DNA of 29,300 nt. It comes from a virus. The position numbers were made by a program, and so were the translations under genes. Shown here piece by piece: positions 3,348 through 25,298 of this stretch (the stretch's first letter is position 1; the number at the start of each line of letters is the position of its first letter). The stretch spans positions 1-29,300 of IMG/VR virus record IMGVR_UViG_3300007071_000005. One strand, given 5' to 3'. The notes below the pieces were generated by a model. It made no database searches. It was not told the DNA's origin and was given only the letters and a program-made list of their open reading frames with translations.

Positions 3348-3704
3348 TCACTCGCTCAGCCGTTCTGGTCGCGCGACTTCACGCCCGTGCGCGCGCTGCT
3401 GGTGCGTCGAGAGCCCCTGGCGCGTCTGGAACTCCTTCCCGCACTCGTCGCATCGGAAGGCATACGAGATGCCACCCGCAGTGACGCGCCCGGCACCCGG
3501 CTCGTCCTCGCCACCGGTGCTCGCTTCTTTCGTCTCCAGTGGCCCTGCCGGCTTCGTCTCGGACGGGCCCGCCGGCTTGACCTCGCGGGCCAGGCCGCGC
3601 TGGATCAGCAGGCGGGCGCGGGCCGGGGGAACCGTGATCCGGCTCCCCCGGCGCACGAACCCTTCTTCGCCGAAATACGTGCGCACGACCTCGAGCTCGA
3701 TCAT
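3348..3704 (-). CDS. Small head-region protein with C2H2 zinc finger
   Basis: About 118 residues starting MIELEVVRTYFGEEGFVRRGSRITVPPARARLLIQRGLA. The first 40 residues resemble short head proteins found after the capsid gene in HK97-like phages ('v+.....g....kGe.i.v...rA..Li.rGlA'). A Pro/Glu/Lys/Thr-rich linker with the near repeat 'VKPAGPSETKPAGPLETKE' follows. The C-terminus, from about residue 83, has 'FRCDECGKEFQTRQGLSTH', continuing to a second histidine: a textbook Cx2C-x12-Hx4H zinc finger. Such fingers are uncommon in phage structural modules. The protein could be a head decoration or accessory protein, or a nucleic-acid- or protein-binding factor that shares the operon. Start ATG at 3704, 13 bases after the capsid stop. 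Confidence 0.7.
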   Translation of the reverse strand: MIELEVVRTYFGEEGFVRRGSRITVPPARARLLIQRGLAREVKPAGPSETKPAGPLETKEASTGGEDEPGAGRVTAGGISYAFRCDECGKEFQTRQGLSTHQQRAHGREVARPERLSE

Positions 3705-3717
3705 GCGTCCTGCCTCA

Positions 3718-4932
3718 TCACGCCGCCGGTGGGTTGTCGAAGACGCCGCGGACGAACGCCTCGGGCCGGTAGACCGTGAGCGCAATCCGCTCCTCGGCGA
3801 GGATGGCGTAGAGGTTCCGCGTGAAGTAGTCGGCATGGCTGTCCGAGATCCGGATCGCCGCCTCCTCGCGGTCCCAGATGGCCGCACCGAGGCTGAACGC
3901 GCCGGTTAGGAACTCGCCCTCGTTGATCGCGGTCGTCTCGACCACGGGGACGCGCCAGAGTCGCGGCACGCCACCGTCCTCGACCCTGACCCAGATGTAG
4001 TGCTGGTCGGAGCCCTTGAGGAGCTCGATGTCTTCCCAGTCGTTCGGGTGCAGCACCAGGCCAGTCACCGGGTACTCGGCGACTCGTGCCTTCGTCATCG
4101 CGCGGCGGATCGCGTCGACCTTGGTATCGCCGGGCTGTCCCTGTGACCAGCTGTACGTCTGGATGTCCGGATCGGTCATGATGCCGGAGAGGTTCGGGCC
4201 CGTGCCGTCGCCGTACAGGATCTGCCGGTCTTCTGTGAGCTTGAGCCCGACGATGAGCCGGTTCTCGATGTAGCTCTGGAGCTGTGCCGCGTCTGCGATG
4301 ATCTGGCGAGTGACGGGCAGGTAATGAGCGATCGTCTTCACTGAGGTCGAGACGATCTCGAAGCTGAGGCTCGACTCCGGCTTCGCAGCCCCCTCGGCGA
4401 CCGGGGCAGCGGCATTGGTGAAGCCTGTCTCGCGGACGAACTCGATGACCCCGGTCGTCGTCCGGTTCACCGGGAGGAGGTCGCGAATCCGCTGGACACG
4501 GTCGGGGAGGGCGATGAGCTCAGCGAGACGCTCCGCCGGGAACAGGTAGGCAGGCACGGTACCGAGCGGGCTCGTCAGTGTGGCCTTCGTGAAGAACGAC
4601 TTCACCGGGAAGGGGGCTGAGAACCCGGTCATTCCTCCCTCGAGGTACCGCTTGTAGGCATCCGACTCGACGAAGCGCTCGCCGAGGCTCTTGGCGTCCG
4701 TGTAGCCGACCACTGGCCGTGCGTGTTGTGCCTCGCTCGCGTCGAGCCGTGTCCGGACAGCCTGGAGTTCCTGCGCGAGCTCGTCGAGCCGCTTGGTCGC
4801 CGCGTCGAGCCGCCGCCCGGTCTCCTCGCGGGCAGCACCGAGCGTGCGGATCTCGTGTTCCTGGCGTTCGACGAGCGTCTTCACCTCTCGAAACGCCTCA
4901 TCGAGGTACCGGGCAAGTTCTCGCAGTTCCAC
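3718..4932 (-). CDS. HK97-type major capsid protein
   Basis: A 404-residue protein. I place the start at GTG 4932 because GGAGG lies seven bases upstream. Residues 1 to about 75 form a charged heptad-like coiled coil (LARYLDEAFREVKTLVE..., LDELAQELQAVRTRLD), the delta or scaffolding domain that the prohead protease removes. The mature part contains the family landmarks: 'LGTVPAYLFPAERLAELIAL', 'VIEFVRETGFTNAAAPVAEG', 'VKTIAHYLPVTRQIIADA', 'LKLTEDRQILYGDGTGPNLSGI', 'VLHPNDWEDIELLKGSD' and a terminal 'IRISDSHADYFTRNLYAI... ERIALTVYRPEAFV'. The neighbours, protease upstream and connector genes downstream, are as expected. Confidence 0.93.
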   Translation of the reverse strand: MELRELARYLDEAFREVKTLVERQEHEIRTLGAAREETGRRLDAATKRLDELAQELQAVRTRLDASEAQHARPVVGYTDAKSLGERFVESDAYKRYLEGGMTGFSAPFPVKSFFTKATLTSPLGTVPAYLFPAERLAELIALPDRVQRIRDLLPVNRTTTGVIEFVRETGFTNAAAPVAEGAAKPESSLSFEIVSTSVKTIAHYLPVTRQIIADAAQLQSYIENRLIVGLKLTEDRQILYGDGTGPNLSGIMTDPDIQTYSWSQGQPGDTKVDAIRRAMTKARVAEYPVTGLVLHPNDWEDIELLKGSDQHYIWVRVEDGGVPRLWRVPVVETTAINEGEFLTGAFSLGAAIWDREEAAIRISDSHADYFTRNLYAILAEERIALTVYRPEAFVRGVFDNPPAA

Positions 4933-4934
4933 TG

Positions 4935-6323
4935 TTACACCTCCGTGTGCAAGGATTGGGTGACGCTCCGGAGCTCGCGGAGCAGCTGCTCCTTGCGAGC
5001 CCAGGTCGAGAGTTGCTCGAGTGCTGCGAGGAGCTCGCTCGCGCCATCCGAGTGAGCAGAGCCCGGCTCGGCTCGGCAGCACGCACAGGCCTGAGTGCGC
5101 TCCTTGCGCGGCTCGGCGAGTGCGAGGAGTTCCTCGAGCACCTCGACAGCTTGCTGGAGTGCCTCGATCGCGTTGCGGACCCGCTGGACGTTGGCTTGTG
5201 ACAGCACCCGTCCTTCCTTGAACTGGGGCTGTGACGGGTTCCGCCGGTGCTCGCCCGGCCACATCCCAGTGCACTGGTAATGGAGCCAGGCGCAGAACGC
5301 AGCCTGGTCGGTGGGATCGAAGTCTCCGAGGCTCGACTCCATGCAGCGGGTGAAGAGACCGGGGTCTGGGCCGAAGTAGTTGCACAGCCCCTCGAGCAGC
5401 TGCGGCGGCATCTGCTTCGGCGAGACGGTGAGCGTTGTGAGGCCCTTCTCGCGCATCGCCTTCGCCGTCGCCGGGCACAGCCGCTCGACGGACTCGAGCG
5501 AGAGCGTGACCGTCCCGCCGTGCTTCTCGAAGAGCTTCTGCACCTCGCGTTCCCAGTCGACCGACCGCTGGCCCGGCCACTCGCCCGTGATCTGGTAGTG
5601 GAGCCAGGCGCAGAACCCCTCGGGTGACTCCTTGTCCTGGTTGCGGCGCACGCAGTCCTCGAAGTCTTGGTATGGCCCGAACGGTTTCCCGGCGGGTGGG
5701 AGCAGCGAGCTGGCGATCCGGTCGAGCCGCTCCGCCTCGCGGCGCCACTGGTCAAGGGCGATCTGGAGCAGGTGTGGCACCTCGTCAGACTCGAAGTGCC
5801 CGTTCTTGAGCGCTTTCTCGAAGCGAGCGATGCGCTCTTTCAGCGAAGCCGCGGAAGGCGTACCCTTCACCCCGACCACGCGAGCGACATCGAGCGCGGC
5901 GAAGGTGACGAACGAGTACTCCCAGAGCCTGACTTCCTTGAGTAGCCGCTCCCCTCGCTCACCACGGGCCGTCTTGATCGGGTCGTAGCCGATCGAGAGC
6001 TCGGTGATGATCCCGTCCTGGACGAGGGAGAGGACGTCGCGCGCGATGGGTGTTCGTGCGAAGAGCGTCTCAGTGTACAGGCCATGCGCATCTTCGAGGA
6101 TTTTCAGGGGACGCCCGACTGGCCAGGACGGCTCGTGCTGGTACAGGGCCTTGATCCGGTTCTTGCCGGACGGTCCCCACTCGGCGATGGTCTTCTGGAA
6201 CGCGCCAGGCTCGACGACGTCTCCCTGGTCATCGAGCACGCCGAAGACGGACGGGTAGGCGATCACGATCCCCTGCGTAGGGTCGAGATCCTTGACCGCC
6301 TGCGGTGTGAGCTTGAACTCCAT
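4935..6323 (-). CDS. HK97-type prohead protease with duplicated C-terminal FCAWLH motif
   Basis: A 462-residue protein, much longer than the roughly 200-residue HK97 protease. I choose ATG 6323 (GGAGG five bases upstream) over an in-frame TTG 15 bases earlier. Residues 1 to about 165 are the serine protease domain, with His near residue 63 (ALYQHEPSWPVG), Ser near 110 (ITELSIGYDPI) and Glu near 135 (LWEYSFVTFAALD). Two copies of a Cys/Trp-rich segment follow, near residues 215-251 and 315-357, each with 'FCAWLHYQ-TG-WPG'. The rest has a helix-rich linker and a 'CACC' cysteine pair near the end. The protease trims capsid scaffolding; the repeated segment is of unknown role. It is followed two bases later by the capsid gene. 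Confidence 0.88.
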   Translation of the reverse strand: MEFKLTPQAVKDLDPTQGIVIAYPSVFGVLDDQGDVVEPGAFQKTIAEWGPSGKNRIKALYQHEPSWPVGRPLKILEDAHGLYTETLFARTPIARDVLSLVQDGIITELSIGYDPIKTARGERGERLLKEVRLWEYSFVTFAALDVARVVGVKGTPSAASLKERIARFEKALKNGHFESDEVPHLLQIALDQWRREAERLDRIASSLLPPAGKPFGPYQDFEDCVRRNQDKESPEGFCAWLHYQITGEWPGQRSVDWEREVQKLFEKHGGTVTLSLESVERLCPATAKAMREKGLTTLTVSPKQMPPQLLEGLCNYFGPDPGLFTRCMESSLGDFDPTDQAAFCAWLHYQCTGMWPGEHRRNPSQPQFKEGRVLSQANVQRVRNAIEALQQAVEVLEELLALAEPRKERTQACACCRAEPGSAHSDGASELLAALEQLSTWARKEQLLRELRSVTQSLHTEV

Positions 6324-8385: not shown

Positions 8386-9735
8386 TTATACCCGCCCGAA
8401 CAGGAATACGGGACGCTGAGTCGGTGCCCAGAACGCCAGGGCGAGCGCGTCGGCCCGGTCCGGAGACGGGAGGCCGCGCGCGCGGAGCTGCTCTTTCGAC
8501 TCGATCCGGATCCGGCCGCGACTGTCGACCGTGTAGCGACGGGTCGCGAGCTGGCCGATGAGGTCGTCGTCGCGGGGGATCGAGATCGATCCCTGCTCGA
8601 AGAGCGTGCGGAGCGTGCCCCACAAGAGGGACGGGAAGTCGGCGTAGTGGTCGTCTCCGCCGCCCGCGAACGTCACCGGCACGACCTCGATCGGGAGCTC
8701 CCGTTCGAGCTCGCGGAGGCCGTCCGTCACGCCGCCACCGACGCCCGTGTCGTCCACCTTGACGCGCACACGCTCCGTGCCGGTCTCGTCGCGCAGGCGG
8801 CGGACGGCCTGGACGACGAGCCCGACGACCTCAGTGACCGCCCGCTGGCGGTAGGCGAGGAGCCAGAGGGCACGGAGCCCCTGCCTGGCACAGATGACGG
8901 TCTCCGAGCTGCCGTAGCGGGCGACGTCGACGCCGATCTCGACCGGTCCGCCAGGCGGGACGTCCCGCTCGACGGCTGCCTCGACGAGCTCGAGCGGGAT
9001 GAGCGTGTCGTCGCTTCCGAGTGGGAACTCGCCGAGCACGCGGACGCGGTACACGTCGGAGTCGCATCCCCACTTCGCGGCCATCTCCGCGACCCAATCA
9101 CGAGAGACGCGCGGCGAGTCCTCGGCGCTCACGTGGAACGTCTTCCAGAAAGCGCGGTGCCGGTGGAAGGCTTGATAAAAGCCGCCGGAGCGCCGCGTCG
9201 GGTTCCCGACCGCGAGGACGACCGCCCCGCTCGTCGTCCGGGCGCCGTCGATGACTTCCCAGGTGTAGTCGGGGATCCCCGATGCCTCGTCGACGACATA
9301 GAGGAGGTGGTCCGCATGGTACCCTGCGAGCCGCTCCGGCTGGTTCGACGAGCGGGCGACGGCGAACCAGGACTTCTCTGCGCCGCGCAGCGCGATACGG
9401 GTTGCGGTGACCTCGAAGAGCGAGCGGATCGGGCTGCGCTCGATCCACTTCGCGATTTCCGGCCAGAGGATGTCGAGGAGCTGGTGCTGCGTCGGCGCGG
9501 TCGCTGGCACGCGGGCATGCGGGAAGCAGGCGAGCTTCCAGATCACCGCCCAGGCAGCGAGCGCGGTTTTGCCGACGCCGTGGCCCGAGCGGACGGCGAC
9601 GCTCTTGCCGCGTGCGAGCGCGTCGAGGGCAGCAGCCTGCCATGGGTCAGGCGTCGCGCCGATGAGGTCCTCGACGAACTCGACAGGCCGGTCAGCGTAG
9701 TGGTCGATGGCGAGTTCAAGCTTCGTTGCGACCAT
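8386..9735 (-). CDS. terL: Terminase large subunit
   Basis: A 449-residue ATPase-nuclease that packages phage DNA. The N-terminal ATPase has a Walker A 'SGHGVGKT' at about residues 50-57 and a Walker B 'LLYVVDEAS' with D149/E150, preceded by the adenine-binding 'DPWQ' near residue 30. The C-terminal RNase H-like nuclease has its acidic residues in 'GVDVARYG' (D270), 'VKVDDTGVGGGV' (D328 region) and 'PDRADALALAF' (D429). Length and motif order are complete. The start overlaps the preceding DpdA-like gene by 20 bases; no strong Shine-Dalgarno is seen. The portal gene follows two bases after the stop. Confidence 0.95.
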   Translation of the reverse strand: MVATKLELAIDHYADRPVEFVEDLIGATPDPWQAAALDALARGKSVAVRSGHGVGKTALAAWAVIWKLACFPHARVPATAPTQHQLLDILWPEIAKWIERSPIRSLFEVTATRIALRGAEKSWFAVARSSNQPERLAGYHADHLLYVVDEASGIPDYTWEVIDGARTTSGAVVLAVGNPTRRSGGFYQAFHRHRAFWKTFHVSAEDSPRVSRDWVAEMAAKWGCDSDVYRVRVLGEFPLGSDDTLIPLELVEAAVERDVPPGGPVEIGVDVARYGSSETVICARQGLRALWLLAYRQRAVTEVVGLVVQAVRRLRDETGTERVRVKVDDTGVGGGVTDGLRELERELPIEVVPVTFAGGGDDHYADFPSLLWGTLRTLFEQGSISIPRDDDLIGQLATRRYTVDSRGRIRIESKEQLRARGLPSPDRADALALAFWAPTQRPVFLFGRV

Positions 9736-11251
9736 CGAGCACGAGACTCCCGAGTTCGTCGTCGCTCGATTTCCGACGGAACAAGTGAGCGAAGCGCGCG
9801 AGGTTCACCGCTGCGGCGATGAAGACCGTCGAGACGAGGTCGTCGCCGAGCACGTCGGTAACCGAGACGCTGTGCCCGCCAGGCGACCAGAGCTGGCCGT
9901 ACTGCGAGATCTTGAGCAGGTAGTTGTGGTCGATCGAGACGACGTACGGGCGTGCCGCGCGCCAGTACCGGTACTGGTCCTCTGGCGACCCACCGAGGAG
10001 GTGGATCCGCCGCCCGAAGAAGCGCTCGATCGGGAGCGGCGTGCCGCCGTGACTCGTTGGGATCGAGTAGCCGAGGACGTATCGCTCCGGGATCTCGTCG
10101 AGGCAGTCGTACTTCGGGATGACGATGACGTGCTCGGCGTACTCCTCGAGCTCCTCCGCCCAGCGCAGGATGGTGTCGAGCGGGTAGTACGGGATCCCGG
10201 CGTCTCGACACTGCTCGCGCGACATGACGTCGCGCACCGTCGCGTACTTCGGCCGGTACCGCGCGACGGCCTCGAGGTGGCGGGCGTGGTCGTAGTTGCG
10301 GTAGTCGCAGTCGACGAAGGCGACCTCGTGGCCACGCAAGCGACCGGCCTGATAGCACACGGGTTCCGACGACTGGACCCCATAGCGAAAGCCGTACTTG
10401 ACGGCGATGCAGCAGACGACGAACCCCGCCCCGTACGTCACGATGACGTCGAGCGTGTCGGGAGGGGCCTCGGTCGTGTCTTCGTCTCCTATTTCCTCGA
10501 GGTCGACCGGACCGCCGGCGAGCAACTTCTGCTCGAGGCGAGCGAGCAGTACGTCGAGCTCCGCGCGGTCGAACCCGGTCAGATCGAGCGCTCCGGCGTC
10601 GTCGAGCTCTTCGAGGAGCGCTGCGAGCATCGCCTCGTCCCACTCGCCCTGGATCTTGTTGAGCGCGACGTTGAGCGCCTTTTCCTTTTCGAGCGGGAGA
10701 TCGACGACCGAGACGTCGACCTCTTTCACGCCCCGCTCGAGGAGCACGCGCAGGCGCTGGTGCCCGCCGACGAGGTGACCGGTGCGGCGGTTCCAGAGGT
10801 ACGTGACCTGTTCGTCGCGCCGGTAGATCGGCTGGAACTGCGGCGCGCTCTGGCACGAGAGCGGCATGGTCGGGTAGAGCGCGCAGCCGAGCACGCGCAG
10901 GTCGCCACCGCGCCCGGGCACGAGGAAGAGGCACCGCCCGTCCCGCCAGTTGTCGGCGACGGTCGCAAGCGTCACGCGCCGCCCGTTCACGGTGACCGTC
11001 CGCTCGCGGAAGTGCCGCTGGAACTCCGGCGGGAGCGCGGCGCGTTCCGACGGCAAGAGGTCGAGCGAGAACGGGAGGCAGCAGGCAGCGCAGCCGGCGG
11101 CGCAGGCGAACCGCCGCCAGAACTGTGGCCCGATGCGGATCTCGCGCGGTGGCCCCGGGAGCGGCTTCCCGTTATAGGTGACCGGTACGGTCGCGAGCGC
11201 AGCGAGCTGGCGGACGACCTTCTCGGCCGAGTCCGGGCACGAGACGGTCAC
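9716..11251 (-). CDS. YkgJ-like / ParB-like / DpdA-family (DUF6610) fusion, putative DNA 7-deazaguanine transglycosylase
   Basis: About 511 residues from GTG 11251, which overlaps the small terminase stop as GTGA; an in-frame GTG at 11305 is possible. Three parts are visible. Residues about 50-133 have a YkgJ-type cysteine pattern: CAAGCAACC, then GRCLFL, then GCALYPTMPLSC. Residues about 145-225 are the core of a ParB-like domain (NRRTGHLVGGHQRLRVLLE, then EKEKALNVALNKIQGEWDE), but the usual first strand and helix are missing. Residues about 268-460 match the DpdA-related DUF6610 pattern: FVDCDYRNYDHARHLEAV, VIPKYD, VLGYSIPTSHGGTPLP, RIHLLGGSPEDQ and SIDHNYLLK. DpdA proteins exchange guanine in DNA for a 7-deazaguanine base. 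The transporter gene upstream fits this role. Activity and the precise base are inference. Confidence 0.7.
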   Translation of the reverse strand: MTVSCPDSAEKVVRQLAALATVPVTYNGKPLPGPPREIRIGPQFWRRFACAAGCAACCLPFSLDLLPSERAALPPEFQRHFRERTVTVNGRRVTLATVADNWRDGRCLFLVPGRGGDLRVLGCALYPTMPLSCQSAPQFQPIYRRDEQVTYLWNRRTGHLVGGHQRLRVLLERGVKEVDVSVVDLPLEKEKALNVALNKIQGEWDEAMLAALLEELDDAGALDLTGFDRAELDVLLARLEQKLLAGGPVDLEEIGDEDTTEAPPDTLDVIVTYGAGFVVCCIAVKYGFRYGVQSSEPVCYQAGRLRGHEVAFVDCDYRNYDHARHLEAVARYRPKYATVRDVMSREQCRDAGIPYYPLDTILRWAEELEEYAEHVIVIPKYDCLDEIPERYVLGYSIPTSHGGTPLPIERFFGRRIHLLGGSPEDQYRYWRAARPYVVSIDHNYLLKISQYGQLWSPGGHSVSVTDVLGDDLVSTVFIAAAVNLARFAHLFRRKSSDDELGSLVLDGRNEA

Positions 11252-11763
11252 TCGCCGGGCTTCGCGACCCGTCGTTCCCAGGCGCGGATGACCGCGTCGA
11301 TCCACGGGTGCCGTTCCTCGGTGATCGTCTCGGGCTCGCCGCGGGAGATCCGCTCGAGCTTCGCGGCCTCGATGAAGTAGCGCAGCACGTCGCCTGGCGA
11401 GAGCTCGGATGGGTCGAGCTCGCGCAGCCGCTGGAGCGCCTTGGTCTGCAGCGCGACCGCCTCCTGGGCGTGCCGGCGCAGCATCTCCTCGACCGCCTCA
11501 CGCTGGGCTTCGCGCCGGAGGCGATCCTGCTCGTCGTCCCAGGCGAGCGCCCGGTCGACCCAGCGGTAGCGCCGCGACCACTTCTCGATCGTCGCCGGAA
11601 CCTTGAGGCGTCCCTTCTTGTCCTTGCTCCTGCCGTAGCCGAGCACCTCGGCGACCCGGCGGAGCGAGCGCTCTTTCGGCGACAGGTCGCGGTAGATCGT
11701 GAAGGCGTGATACGCCTTCGCCGGCTCGCCGGGGAGGCGTTCCCAGGGCTTCGTCTCGGTCAT
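11248..11763 (-). CDS. Terminase small subunit-like protein
   Basis: A 171-residue protein starting MTETKPWERLPGEPAKAYHAFTIYRDLSPKERSLRRVAEVLGY. The pattern 'W..LpGE..kAY.AF..Y.dl.p.eRSl..va..lG' followed by 'IEKWSRRYRWVDRALAWDDE' is a DNA-binding HTH region common in phage proteins encoded just before the large terminase. A long charged helix (DRLRREAQREAVEEMLRRHAQEA) and 'ELSPGDVLRYFIEAAKLERISRGEPE' follow. It would recognise the packaging site. The ATG at 11763 overlaps the transporter stop (ATGA). Unusually, the DpdA-like gene is inserted between it and the large subunit gene. The role is by analogy. Confidence 0.7.
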   Translation of the reverse strand: MTETKPWERLPGEPAKAYHAFTIYRDLSPKERSLRRVAEVLGYGRSKDKKGRLKVPATIEKWSRRYRWVDRALAWDDEQDRLRREAQREAVEEMLRRHAQEAVALQTKALQRLRELDPSELSPGDVLRYFIEAAKLERISRGEPETITEERHPWIDAVIRAWERRVAKPGE

Positions 11764-12284
11764 GCCACCGCCTCGCGCCAGATCGTCCGCGTGAGCACGA
11801 ACGCCCAGACTGCCCCGCCGAGTACCTTCGCAGCGAACTCGCTCGCGGTCACGAGCGGCACGATGCTCCCGAGCGCGACGGTCGGCCAGACGAGGCTGTC
11901 GGTGAGCGCGCCGGCCAGGTTCGAGCGCAGGACGCGCTCGAGGCGTGGTCGCTGGCGGGCGAGCGCGTAGACGGCAGCGTCGGCGAGGCCGGACGCGACG
12001 AACGCGAGGCACGAGGCGAGCGCGATCCGGCCGGCCGCCCCGTTGAGCGTGTACGAGAGGAGGCCTCCGGCCCCGATGAGCGCTGCCATGCGCGGCCAGA
12101 GGCTGCGGCCCTCCCACCGCTCGTGCAGGGCATCGCGCACGACCAGGTCGACGGCGATCAGCGAGAAGCAGACGAGGACGTCGACGGCGAGGAAGGTCGA
12201 GAGCGGTGCGCCAGCGACCGCCGTCATGGCCAGGTTCGCCGCCACGACCGCAGCGAGGTAGGCGAGGCAGTAGACCGCTGTCAA
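11760..12284 (-). CDS. VUT/YhhQ-family 7-deazaguanine (queuosine precursor) transporter
   Basis: A 174-residue membrane protein with about five hydrophobic helices. The only credible start is TTG 12284: the frame has a stop further upstream with no ATG or GTG between, and the first helix (VYCLAYLAAVVAANLAM) would be lost with the later ATG at 12227. Family landmarks are 'FLAVDVLVCFSLIAVDLVVRDALHERW', 'SYTLNGAAGRIALAS', 'FVASGLADAAVYALAR' and 'RSNLAGALTDSLVWPTVALGS'. These fit the VUT family (YhhQ), importers of preQ0/preQ1-type bases. Some phages carry YhhQ together with DpdA to modify their DNA. It is the first gene after the intergenic gap, with the small terminase and DpdA-like genes directly downstream, so it seems to be part of the late operon. 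Confidence 0.82.
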   Translation of the reverse strand: MTAVYCLAYLAAVVAANLAMTAVAGAPLSTFLAVDVLVCFSLIAVDLVVRDALHERWEGRSLWPRMAALIGAGGLLSYTLNGAAGRIALASCLAFVASGLADAAVYALARQRPRLERVLRSNLAGALTDSLVWPTVALGSIVPLVTASEFAAKVLGGAVWAFVLTRTIWREAVA

Positions 12285-12794: not shown

Positions 12795-13196
12795 TTACCC
12801 GACGAGGATCCGCAAGGCCGTGCACGCGCGCGTGCCACGCTCGCGGCAGAGGCCATACCAGTAGTACGCCTCGTTCTCGTTCTCCGTGAGGAGATGCAGC
12901 CCGCGGGCGACGCGTTCGAGGCGCTCGACACTCTCGATGGGAGAGAGCGCGAGCGCGTAGAGCGCGAGGCGCACGCCGAGCGGCTCGGGGACCAGAGACG
13001 GTTGCGAGTTTTCCGGGAGCGTGTAGCCGGCGCGTTCGCAGTCCATTGCGAGGTACGGGCGTGCCACGTCGAGCGCGAGGCCTTTCAGCGTGCCGATGCG
13101 CTCGACGACGCGCGACTTCCCGTCGCGCCGTGCCTCGAGGACGTCGATCCGCGTGACGGTGCCGTGGTCGCGCTCGACACGCACGAGGAACGTCAT
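12795..13196 (-). CDS. Conserved-looking protein of unknown function in recombination cluster
   Basis: A 133-residue protein starting [39 protein letters not shown]. The N-terminus reads as beta strands ([14 protein letters not shown]) and the C-terminus as helices, ending '[16 protein letters not shown]' and '[10 protein letters not shown]'. The general plan reminds me of DUF7680-type proteins, but I cannot verify this. It overlaps the nuclease gene upstream as ATGA and is followed ten bases later by the putative late regulator, so it is translated with the replication and recombination genes. No catalytic motif is apparent. Confidence 0.7.
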
Positions 13197-23058: not shown

Positions 23059-23547
23059 ATGGAGCACTTCGTCATTGATTCTAACGTATTCATTCACGGG
23101 GCAAATCGGTGGTATCCGATGGATATCTTCCCTGCATTTTGGCAAAAGCTCGTAGAGTTAGCTACAAATGGACAAGTGGTCAGCGTCGATGCGGTGCGCG
23201 AGGAGCTCACGAAGCGTCAGGATACCCTCGCTGAATGGGCGAAGGATAGTTTCAATGGGTGGCGCGCGGCAAAGTCTGATCCCTTGGTCCAACAGCATTA
23301 CTCAGAGGTTATACGGCATGTCAACGGACTCCGGGGCAAATCATCAGCAGCGAAATATCAATTTGCAAACAAGGCAGACGGATGGATCGTCGCGTATGCT
23401 GTAGCATACAGTGCAATTGTTGTGACACATGAGAAGAGTGTTTCAGAAACCTCCCAAAAGATCAAGATTCCTGATGTATGTCATCAATTCAATGTCGAGT
23501 GCATTCGCCTCGTCGAGATGCTCCGGCGTCTGAATGTGACGATCTAA
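23059..23547 (+). CDS. DUF4411 PIN-like ribonuclease, probable toxin
   Basis: A 162-residue protein starting MEHFVIDSNVFIHGANRWYPMDIFPAFW. The first acidic residue in 'VIDSN', 'VDAVREELTKRQDTLAEWA' in the middle and 'KADGWIVAYAVAYSAIVVTHE' later are the acidic-site motifs of DUF4411 PIN-fold proteins. These are likely Mg-dependent RNases. It lies directly after an ImmA/IrrE-type gene, a known toxin-antitoxin style pairing. The gene is visibly more AT-rich than the phage core, one more sign of transfer. Toxicity is inferred from the family. Confidence 0.82.
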   Translation: MEHFVIDSNVFIHGANRWYPMDIFPAFWQKLVELATNGQVVSVDAVREELTKRQDTLAEWAKDSFNGWRAAKSDPLVQQHYSEVIRHVNGLRGKSSAAKYQFANKADGWIVAYAVAYSAIVVTHEKSVSETSQKIKIPDVCHQFNVECIRLVEMLRRLNVTI

Positions 23548-23570
23548 GTAACATGCAAGGGCTGCTGTTC

Positions 23571-25298
23571 ATGACCGACACTTGGCGCAACCAACTCTAC
23601 TTCGGTGACAACCTCGACGTGCTCCGCGAGCACATACCGGATGCGTCAGTTGATCTCATCTACCTTGACCCGCCGTTTAACTCGAATGCCACCTACAACG
23701 TGCTCTTCCGTGAACGGTCCGGCGAGCAGTCTGCAGCCCAGATCACGGCCTTCGAGGACACTTGGCACTGGGGGATCGAGGCTGAGCGCACCTTCCACGA
23801 GCTCGTCACCGCTGGACCGAAGAAAGTCGCTGACCTCATGCAGGCACTGCGGGCCTTTCTCGGCCAAAACGACGTCATGGCCTATCTCACCATGATGGCC
23901 ATCCGCCTCGTCGAGCTGCACCGTGTGCTCAAACCCACGGGCTCGCTCTACTTGCACTGTGATCCGACGGCGAGCCATTACATCAAGCTCGTGCTCGATG
24001 CGATCTTCGGCCCGCGGCAATTCAAGAACGAGATCATCTGGAAGCGCTCGAGTGCCCATAGCGACACGAAGCAAGGGATGCGGAGGTACGGGCGAGTGCA
24101 TGACGTCATCCTCTTCTATACCAAGACGGAAACCTACACCTGGAATTCGCAGTATCTTCCTTATGATGAGAAATACGTCCAGGAGTTTTATCGTTACGTG
24201 GAACCAGAGACCGGGCGACGGTATCGCATGGATAATCTCACCGCAGCCAAGCCAGGCGGCGACACCCAGTATGCCTGGCGGGTCAAGCGCCGTATCGATC
24301 CGCCCGGCCCCTGGCAGGCCGATCTCGACGATGAGTGGCAGAACCCGCAACCTGGCTGGGAATACAAGGCAGTCTATCCCTATCGTGGCCGTTTCTGGGC
24401 ATACAGCAAGGAGAACATGATTGCATTCGAGCGTGCCGGTCGGCTGGTGTACACCAAGACCGGGATGCCCTGCTACAAGCGCTACCTGGACGAGCAGCCT
24501 GGCGTGCCGCTGCAAGATATTTGGGATGACATACCGCCAGCCCTCGGAAAAGAGGATCTCGGCTACCCGACCCAGAAACCTCAGGCGCTGCTCGAACGCA
24601 TCATCAACGCCAGCTCTAACCCGGGCGACCTCGTGCTTGATCCCTTCTGCGGCTGCGGTACTGCGGTGGTCGCTGCCGAAAAGCTCGGCCGTCGCTGGAT
24701 CGGCATTGACATCACCTATCTCGCCATCGACCTGATCGAGCGCCGGCTTCAGGACACCTTCGGTGATGAACTCCACCCCTACGAGGTGCACGGCGCGCCC
24801 AAAGACCTCCCCAGCGCTCGGGCACTCGCCCAGCGAGATCGCCACCAGTTCGAGTGGTGGGCGCTCAGCCTCGTCGATGCCCACCCAGCTCAGGACAAGC
24901 GCAAGGGCGCTGACCGGGGGATCGACGGCTTCATCTACTTCTTCGATGATGATAGCGGTCAGGCCAAGCGGATCGTCGTCCAGGTCAAAAGCGGTGCGGT
25001 CAACGTGGGCCAGGTACGGGATCTCCGTGGCGTGATCGACCGCGAGCAGGCAGCGATCGGCGTGCTCATCACGCTGGAGCCACCGACTGAGCCCATGAAA
25101 CGTGAGGCGGTGGCTGCAGGGTTCTACGAGCCTCCCCGTTTCCCCGGCCGCCGCTACCCACGGCTCCAGATTCTGACCGTCCAGGAACTGCTGTCCGGTG
25201 CACGAGTACAGTACCCGCAGTTAGCACCGGTGGCAACGTTCAAGCGTGCAAAACGGGAAAGAAAGAAACAACTTCGTCAGGAACGGCTGGCCTTGTGA
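23571..25298 (+). CDS. DNA methyltransferase fused to Mrr-like restriction nuclease domain
   Basis: About 575 residues. I take ATG 23571 (MTDTWRNQLYFGDNLDVLRE) as start; ATG 23553 is possible. Near the N-terminus 'VDLIYLDPPFNSN' is catalytic motif IV, and 'VLDPFCGCGTAVVAAEKLG' near residue 357 is the SAM-binding motif I, so the order is that of beta-class amino methyltransferases (N6-adenine or N4-cytosine). From about residue 420 there is a second domain, 'KGADRGIDGFIYFF' followed by 'RIVVQVKSGAVNVGQVRDL': a D...QxK nuclease site of the Mrr/PD-(D/E)XK type. It could be a single-chain restriction-modification enzyme. The gene follows the PIN gene by 23 bases and is probably part of the same defence-type island. 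Confidence 0.85.
   Translation: MTDTWRNQLYFGDNLDVLREHIPDASVDLIYLDPPFNSNATYNVLFRERSGEQSAAQITAFEDTWHWGIEAERTFHELVTAGPKKVADLMQALRAFLGQNDVMAYLTMMAIRLVELHRVLKPTGSLYLHCDPTASHYIKLVLDAIFGPRQFKNEIIWKRSSAHSDTKQGMRRYGRVHDVILFYTKTETYTWNSQYLPYDEKYVQEFYRYVEPETGRRYRMDNLTAAKPGGDTQYAWRVKRRIDPPGPWQADLDDEWQNPQPGWEYKAVYPYRGRFWAYSKENMIAFERAGRLVYTKTGMPCYKRYLDEQPGVPLQDIWDDIPPALGKEDLGYPTQKPQALLERIINASSNPGDLVLDPFCGCGTAVVAAEKLGRRWIGIDITYLAIDLIERRLQDTFGDELHPYEVHGAPKDLPSARALAQRDRHQFEWWALSLVDAHPAQDKRKGADRGIDGFIYFFDDDSGQAKRIVVQVKSGAVNVGQVRDLRGVIDREQAAIGVLITLEPPTEPMKREAVAAGFYEPPRFPGRRYPRLQILTVQELLSGARVQYPQLAPVATFKRAKRERKKQLRQERLAL

Follow-up and report, generated by a model that had tools for sequence, protein, structure and literature searches.

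The viral record IMGVR_UViG_3300007071_000005 consists of 29,300 bases in its entirety, all of which were analysed (hereafter the window). It appears to come from a tailed phage of temperate lifestyle: besides the head and packaging genes it encodes an integrase, a repressor-like helix-turn-helix protein and an endolysin. Our subject is a set of four minus-strand genes that encode, in order, a short transporter of the Vut_1/YhhQ family (VUT), the terminase small subunit (TerS), a fusion protein with a DUF6610 domain in its C-terminal part and the terminase large subunit (TerL), and that may equip the phage to place a scavenged 7-deazaguanine in its DNA. A preliminary description had named a VUT/YhhQ-type gene, TerS and a DUF6610 protein at this site, and the family matches given below and in Table 1 bear it out on all three. 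The absence of synthesis genes that it reported also holds: folE, queD, queE, queC and queF were not found in the 29.3-kb window, the record being possibly incomplete.

Going by the open reading frame coordinates, each gene overlaps the next, by 4, 4 and 20 bases in turn, which makes it very likely that one message serves for the translation of all four. The TerS ATG at 11763 overlaps the VUT stop as ATGA, while the likely start of the fusion protein, within an open frame at 9716-11305(-), is the GTG at 11251, which overlaps the TerS stop as GTGA. The G+C content at third codon positions (GC3) is 0.88-0.92 in all four genes. A 10-kb contig (L136) has the same arrangement, and its proteins are identical to those of the window except for a patch inside VUT where X-to-G differences are clustered (1475-1561, corresponding to window 11967-12053); we examined this variation as a possible real difference and judged it an assembly (or sequencing) error.

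Table 1. Genes and domains of the probable VUT-terminase operon (window positions)
Feature	Position	Strand	Remarks
VUT, short Vut_1/YhhQ-family transporter	11760..12284	-	174 amino acids, TTG start; PF02592, phrog_4899
Terminase small subunit, TerS	11248..11763	-	phrog_6299 2.6e-27; overlaps on both sides
YkgJ-ParB-DUF6610 fusion, proposed DNA guanine transglycosylase	9716..11251	-	511 amino acids, GTG start; PF20314, tRNA-guanine transglycosylase fold
YkgJ-type CxxxCxxCC cluster domain, fusion N-terminus	10802..11251	-	PF03692, phrog_16018, Pan1_55
ParB-like domain, N-terminal half absent	10500..10800 (approximate)	-	phrog_620, phrog_498, alignment
DUF6610 domain, transglycosylase fold; Asp314, Asp341, Asp441 (511-residue numbering)	9770..10460	-	
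Terminase large subunit, TerL	8386..9735	-	phrog_2 1.1e-42; start overlaps fusion gene end by 20 bases

The DUF6610 domain and its gene partners

The C-terminal part of the fusion protein matches PF20314 (DUF6610) with an E-value of 1.4e-41 and 142.7 bits, against a curated cut-off of 27. An AlphaFold model built from 23 sequences is of high confidence over approximately residues 310-480, and the best 50 matches that Foldseek returned from the PDB are all tRNA-guanine transglycosylases (TGTs; E 1.6e-5, probability 1.00), the top match placing model residues 251-502 on TGT residues 21-381. A second aligner gave a Z score of 13.7 over 231 residues, with a root-mean-square deviation of 3.7 Å and about 10% identity. 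Viral matches include a phage queuine ribosyltransferase, phiST and the nt-1 protein R9TGF0 (weak, E 0.02). As modelled, therefore, the DUF6610 domain has a TGT-type fold and probably falls within the TGT superfamily. Three aspartates, Asp314, Asp341 and Asp441, do not vary among 23 aligned sequences from bacterial and archaeal viruses, and the model locates Asp314 and Asp441 at the ends of predicted strands. Two such aspartates serve as general base and nucleophile in TGT; judged only by the order of motifs shared with that enzyme, Asp314 would be the general base and Asp441 the nucleophile.

The company that DUF6610 genes keep in other viruses points to 7-deazaguanine metabolism. In HVTV-1, HCTV-5 and HCTV-16 the DUF6610 gene stands directly after folE and near queC, queD, queE and queF, and in HCTV-16 folE is adjoined by YhhQ, a gene already recorded (PMC8651126). 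The haloarchaeal proteins (HVTV-1 gp69, HCTV-16 gp68) share the Pfam domain and the invariant aspartates with the window protein, and HCTV-1 and HCTV-16 carry YhhQ as the window phage carries VUT; the haloarchaeal proteins differ in lacking the ParB and YkgJ parts, and their genes lie beside folE and other preQ0 genes in viruses that make the base themselves. Gene 1 of the mycobacteriophages Knocker and Rinkes ('ParB-like nuclease domain protein') is likewise a ParB-DUF6610 fusion, with 37-39% identity in the DUF6610 part, and opens a folE-dpdA-queC-queD-queE-folE cluster. These phages are unlike the window in having a full synthesis cluster and a second DpdA, and in Knocker YkgJ is a separate gene. 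Among 33 further DUF6610 loci from IMG/VR, the ones closest to the window either adjoin VUT or include a synthesis cluster: 17 of the 18 nearer relatives (L023-L040) carry VUT or synthesis genes in the flank, the exception (L031) being a contig that ends just after the gene. In HF-type haloviruses DUF6610 occurs alone.

A second transglycosylase is mostly missing from this company. Around the 33 loci a phrog_887 DpdA was not seen, and whole-record searches for a phrog_887 or PF01702 transglycosylase gave none in HVTV-1, HCTV-5 and HCTV-16 or in nine DUF6610 virus records, that of the window included. In HVTV-1 DNA approximately 30% of guanines are dPreQ1, and no DpdA was recognised (Hutinet 2019, PMC6884629). 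Because this DNA is heavily modified and we found no other transglycosylase, the DUF6610 protein is the natural and obvious candidate for the modifying enzyme of HVTV-1. Cui et al. are said to have defined DpdA4, in 2023, as specific to archaeal viruses; DpdA4 may, we presume, be the DUF6610 family, in which case the bacteriophage members would widen it.

The transporter has partners of a similar kind. VUT matches PF02592 (Vut_1; E 1.1e-8, 36 bits against a curated cut-off of 27.2) and phrog_4899 (2.5e-32), and its hydropathy is consistent with several membrane helices, perhaps the five of the preliminary description. Its score for YhhQ NF008406 is 14.3, below the cut-off of 252, so we call it YhhQ-like, not YhhQ. 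In each of the seven GenBank VUT phages that were checked by profile (PEAT2, Flyfo, RHph_N3_2, AB3P2, Phc, Opt-719 and Lg3) a phrog_887 transglycosylase touches VUT or lies within 100 bp of it, and a transglycosylase lies within 500 bp of VUT in 73 of 80 IMG/VR loci (59 distinct proteins), a sample collected by similarity to phage VUT proteins and partly related, so that its members are not independent events. Two more of the 80 have synthesis genes only; three of the five that remain are at contig edges, and one of the five (L067) gave a weaker transglycosylase match in the first count. QueC is absent from most of the DUF6610-VUT records tested (G008 is an exception) and from each of the seven GenBank phages, and because of the latter, import seems to stand in for synthesis. 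The window resembles the known phage systems of DpdA plus YhhQ (PMC6884629), exemplified by Pectobacterium phage PEAT2, in setting a transglycosylase beside VUT/YhhQ with no queC; the PEAT2 enzyme, however, is a phrog_887 DpdA, whereas that of the window is a DUF6610 protein whose only link to TGT is the fold and which also bears ParB and YkgJ parts. A further uncharacterised architecture, a TGT-like domain fused to DUF6884, adjoins VUT at 163-1437 of another contig (L080).

We consider it probable that the fusion protein belongs to a DUF6610 branch of the TGT fold and, as a guanine transglycosylase, replaces guanine in the DNA of the phage itself with a 7-deazaguanine, VUT supplying the base by uptake. 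In this model VUT, a predicted transporter, would take up preQ0 or preQ1 and so stand in for the synthesis genes found in other phages, and the DUF6610 part would exchange guanine in phage DNA most likely for one of these two bases. The residual ParB part may aid DNA binding, and the YkgJ part could be an iron-sulfur or metal accessory which may alter the base further. The benefit to the phage would be protection from restriction, probably by hiding its DNA from host defences. Computation shows the fold, three aspartates that do not vary, recurrent partnerships between genes and an import that complements synthesis, and on this computational footing the core idea of the preliminary description is well supported.

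The other parts of the fusion and the terminase slot

The preliminary description saw at this locus a minimal DNA-modification pair. Pairing is borne out by the partnerships of DUF6610 and VUT and by the VUT-DpdA phages without queC, but the set is not minimal, as a YkgJ cluster, which had been missed, and a truncated ParB are present too. The isolated N-terminal part of the fusion protein scores 23.0 bits with PF03692 (YkgJ/CxxCxxCC), exactly at the cut-off of 23, and the whole frame 20.2; it also matches phrog_16018 (1.6e-5). It lacks the C-terminal third of its family and is modelled poorly (predicted local distance difference test score 64), and it retains all seven of the cysteines that are invariant across 19 sequences (the window and 18 phage relatives). 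Between YkgJ and DUF6610, matches to phrog_620 and phrog_498 begin only at profile positions 49 and 75; a complete ParB/Srx domain was accordingly not found, the first 49-75 profile positions being absent by PHROGs and alignment alike. The losses in both parts could be explained by a deletion between two once-adjacent genes.

The closest comparison for the YkgJ part is Pan1_55 (34% identity, E 3e-3), which lies between queF and a transglycosylase. Among 50,697 phage records only 27 hold relatives of the Pan1 protein, namely those of Pan1, Knocker and phages of Cellulophaga and Vibrio; QueC is present in four of four such phages, one record having been tested per group, and 7-deazaguanine genes lie within 5 kb of YkgJ in 16 of 19 IMG/VR loci. 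This YkgJ-type family (window 10802-11251; L203, L204, L009 and L206-L224) tracks phage 7-deazaguanine clusters and often stands beside queF. The gene order in Cellulophaga phage phi38:2 is queF, YkgJ, DpdA, ParB, queC, queD, queE, so that YkgJ, transglycosylase and ParB (gp53-gp52-gp51) adjoin as in the window fusion; there, however, they are separate proteins, the enzyme is of phrog_887 and a full synthesis cluster with queF is present.

The flagellin lysine methyltransferase FliB has a [4Fe-4S] cluster and methylates lysine amines, and its authors liken its cysteine motif to PF03692 (PMC8598068); the cysteine spacing differs from that of the phage domain. This likeness, together with the frequent queF neighbours, suggests that the YkgJ part might act as a preQ1 N-methylase. 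Counting against this is the plain dPreQ1 mass seen in a Schizotequatrovirus (PMC12028318), which may or may not carry the YkgJ gene. A rather unlikely extension of the proposal is that both steps reside in a single phage polypeptide, the DUF6610 part inserting a scavenged 7-deazaguanine and an iron-sulfur YkgJ part afterwards modifying it, perhaps through N-methylation of preQ1, so that a phage lacking synthesis genes would carry a hypermodified base.

Relatives differ in what the terminase slot holds. One contig (L057; TerL 70% and VUT 48% identical) has a ParB-TGT fusion, VUT, TerS and TerL in one row, the fusion (3406-4980) joining ParB to a TGT-type domain that matches PF01702 at E 4.2e-5, under the curated cut-off. 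In a metagenome-assembled genome (MAG) labelled Archaeoglobus, ParB, DpdA, VUT, TerS and TerL are five separate genes, and Clostridium and Selenomonas prophages have stand-alone ParB-like genes upstream of TerS. A sister phage (L138; TerL 71%, portal 78%) lacks both VUT and the DUF6610 core, which suggests that VUT and the fusion gene come and go as a pair, even with TerS in between as in the window. At 1129-1239 of that phage, before TerS, approximately 37 residues resemble the C-terminus of the fusion protein and are possibly a relic. The preliminary description had supposed that modification is timed with packaging because the genes share the terminase operon. This is not supported: a terminase was detected near only 11 of the 80 VUT loci and 3 of the 33 DUF6610 loci, and related phages have ParB-like genes in the slot. 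We dropped a general link between the module and terminase genes, as the proximity is not general.

The truncation of YkgJ and ParB, and a sister phage with only the 37-residue stretch left of the module, would also fit a module in decay, of which only parts of YkgJ and ParB remain and which leaves the phage DNA unmodified. We regard this as unlikely, since the frames are open, GC3 is near 0.9, and none of the seven cysteines of the cluster or of the presumed catalytic aspartates has been lost.

Weighing the transglycosylase proposal

Several results speak against a DNA guanine transglycosylase fed by VUT. The fusion protein matches none of the DpdA profiles PF23859, phrog_887 and NCBIfam NF041059, hhalign of DUF6610 against a phrog_887-type alignment (7 and 21 sequences) did no better than chance, and no counterpart of the TGT zinc cysteines can be made out beyond Asp441, as read from the sequence. 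VUT scores 20.1 with TIGR00697, short of the queuosine-precursor transporter equivalog cut-off of 50.95. Knocker is an exception in encoding a phrog_887 DpdA besides its DUF6610-ParB protein, so the role of DUF6610 may differ there. Finally, in Salmonella phage 7-11 and mycobacteriophage Orion (DpdA only) the base was present in traces at most (PMC6884629), and such gene sets therefore need not give modified DNA. A PDB sequence search returned nothing relevant. The preliminary description had spoken of a DUF6610/DpdA-type domain and had made a match to DpdA profiles its own test; the TGT fold of all 50 PDB matches upholds the kinship, while the sequence match is missing. As there is no sequence-profile link to DpdA, we file the protein as DUF6610, not under PF23859 or phrog_887.

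A fold that is that of tRNA enzymes also raises the idea that the DUF6610 protein is a phage queuine-type transglycosylase acting on tRNA, with VUT feeding tRNA modification during infection; a tRNA role has been proposed for phages with preQ0 genes but no DpdA (PMC6884629). The fusion of ParB-like domains to DUF6610 in many relatives, and the heavy modification of HVTV-1 virion DNA itself, for which DUF6610 is the sole candidate, make this improbable. An equally improbable reading makes DUF6610 the non-catalytic or targeting partner of a different transglycosylase, in this phage one from the host. The Knocker cluster, with both proteins, fits such a partnership, but viruses of bacteria and of archaea alike keep the three aspartates without exception and most DUF6610 records have no other transglycosylase. 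One TGT-family enzyme is described as remodelled for nucleobase-protein conjugation (PMC11996544), but the ParB fusion and the match of DUF6610 to modified HVTV-1 virion DNA indicate DNA, so that a domain which attaches 7-deazaguanine to protein, or serves host-virus conflict like Cap10 of type IV cyclic-oligonucleotide-based antiphage signalling systems (CBASS), is very improbable.

Host and significance

The composition of the phage proteins is thermophile-like. The IVYWREL index is 0.44-0.46 in TerL, portal and fusion protein, compared with 0.38-0.41 in four of six comparison terminases and 0.42 and 0.43 in those of the Archaeoglobus and Anaerolinea MAGs, a capsid entry being disregarded because it was out of frame; as the index is meant for proteomes, this is only a hint, and the thermophilic host of the preliminary description is unproven. 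A scan of genome contigs with TerL gave a best match of 53% identity, in the Anaerolinea MAG, and no close prophage came up when 400 genomes from the phylum of that MAG were searched with the portal. Elsewhere in the window are a separate DNA methyltransferase gene (23478-25298; phrog_67, 2.3e-70), a second kind of DNA modification in the same phage, and, upstream of VUT, a gene for a DUF7680 protein (12795-13196; PF24728, 4.1e-18).

The function we propose would give the uncharacterised Pfam family DUF6610 a role, and it offers an answer to the heavy modification of HVTV-1 DNA, for which no DpdA was recognised in 2019. Our comparisons point to one more component of phage 7-deazaguanine systems, the cysteine-cluster protein of YkgJ type. 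They also indicate that in phages a single transporter gene takes the place of the complete preQ0 pathway, a salvage route that is directly testable.

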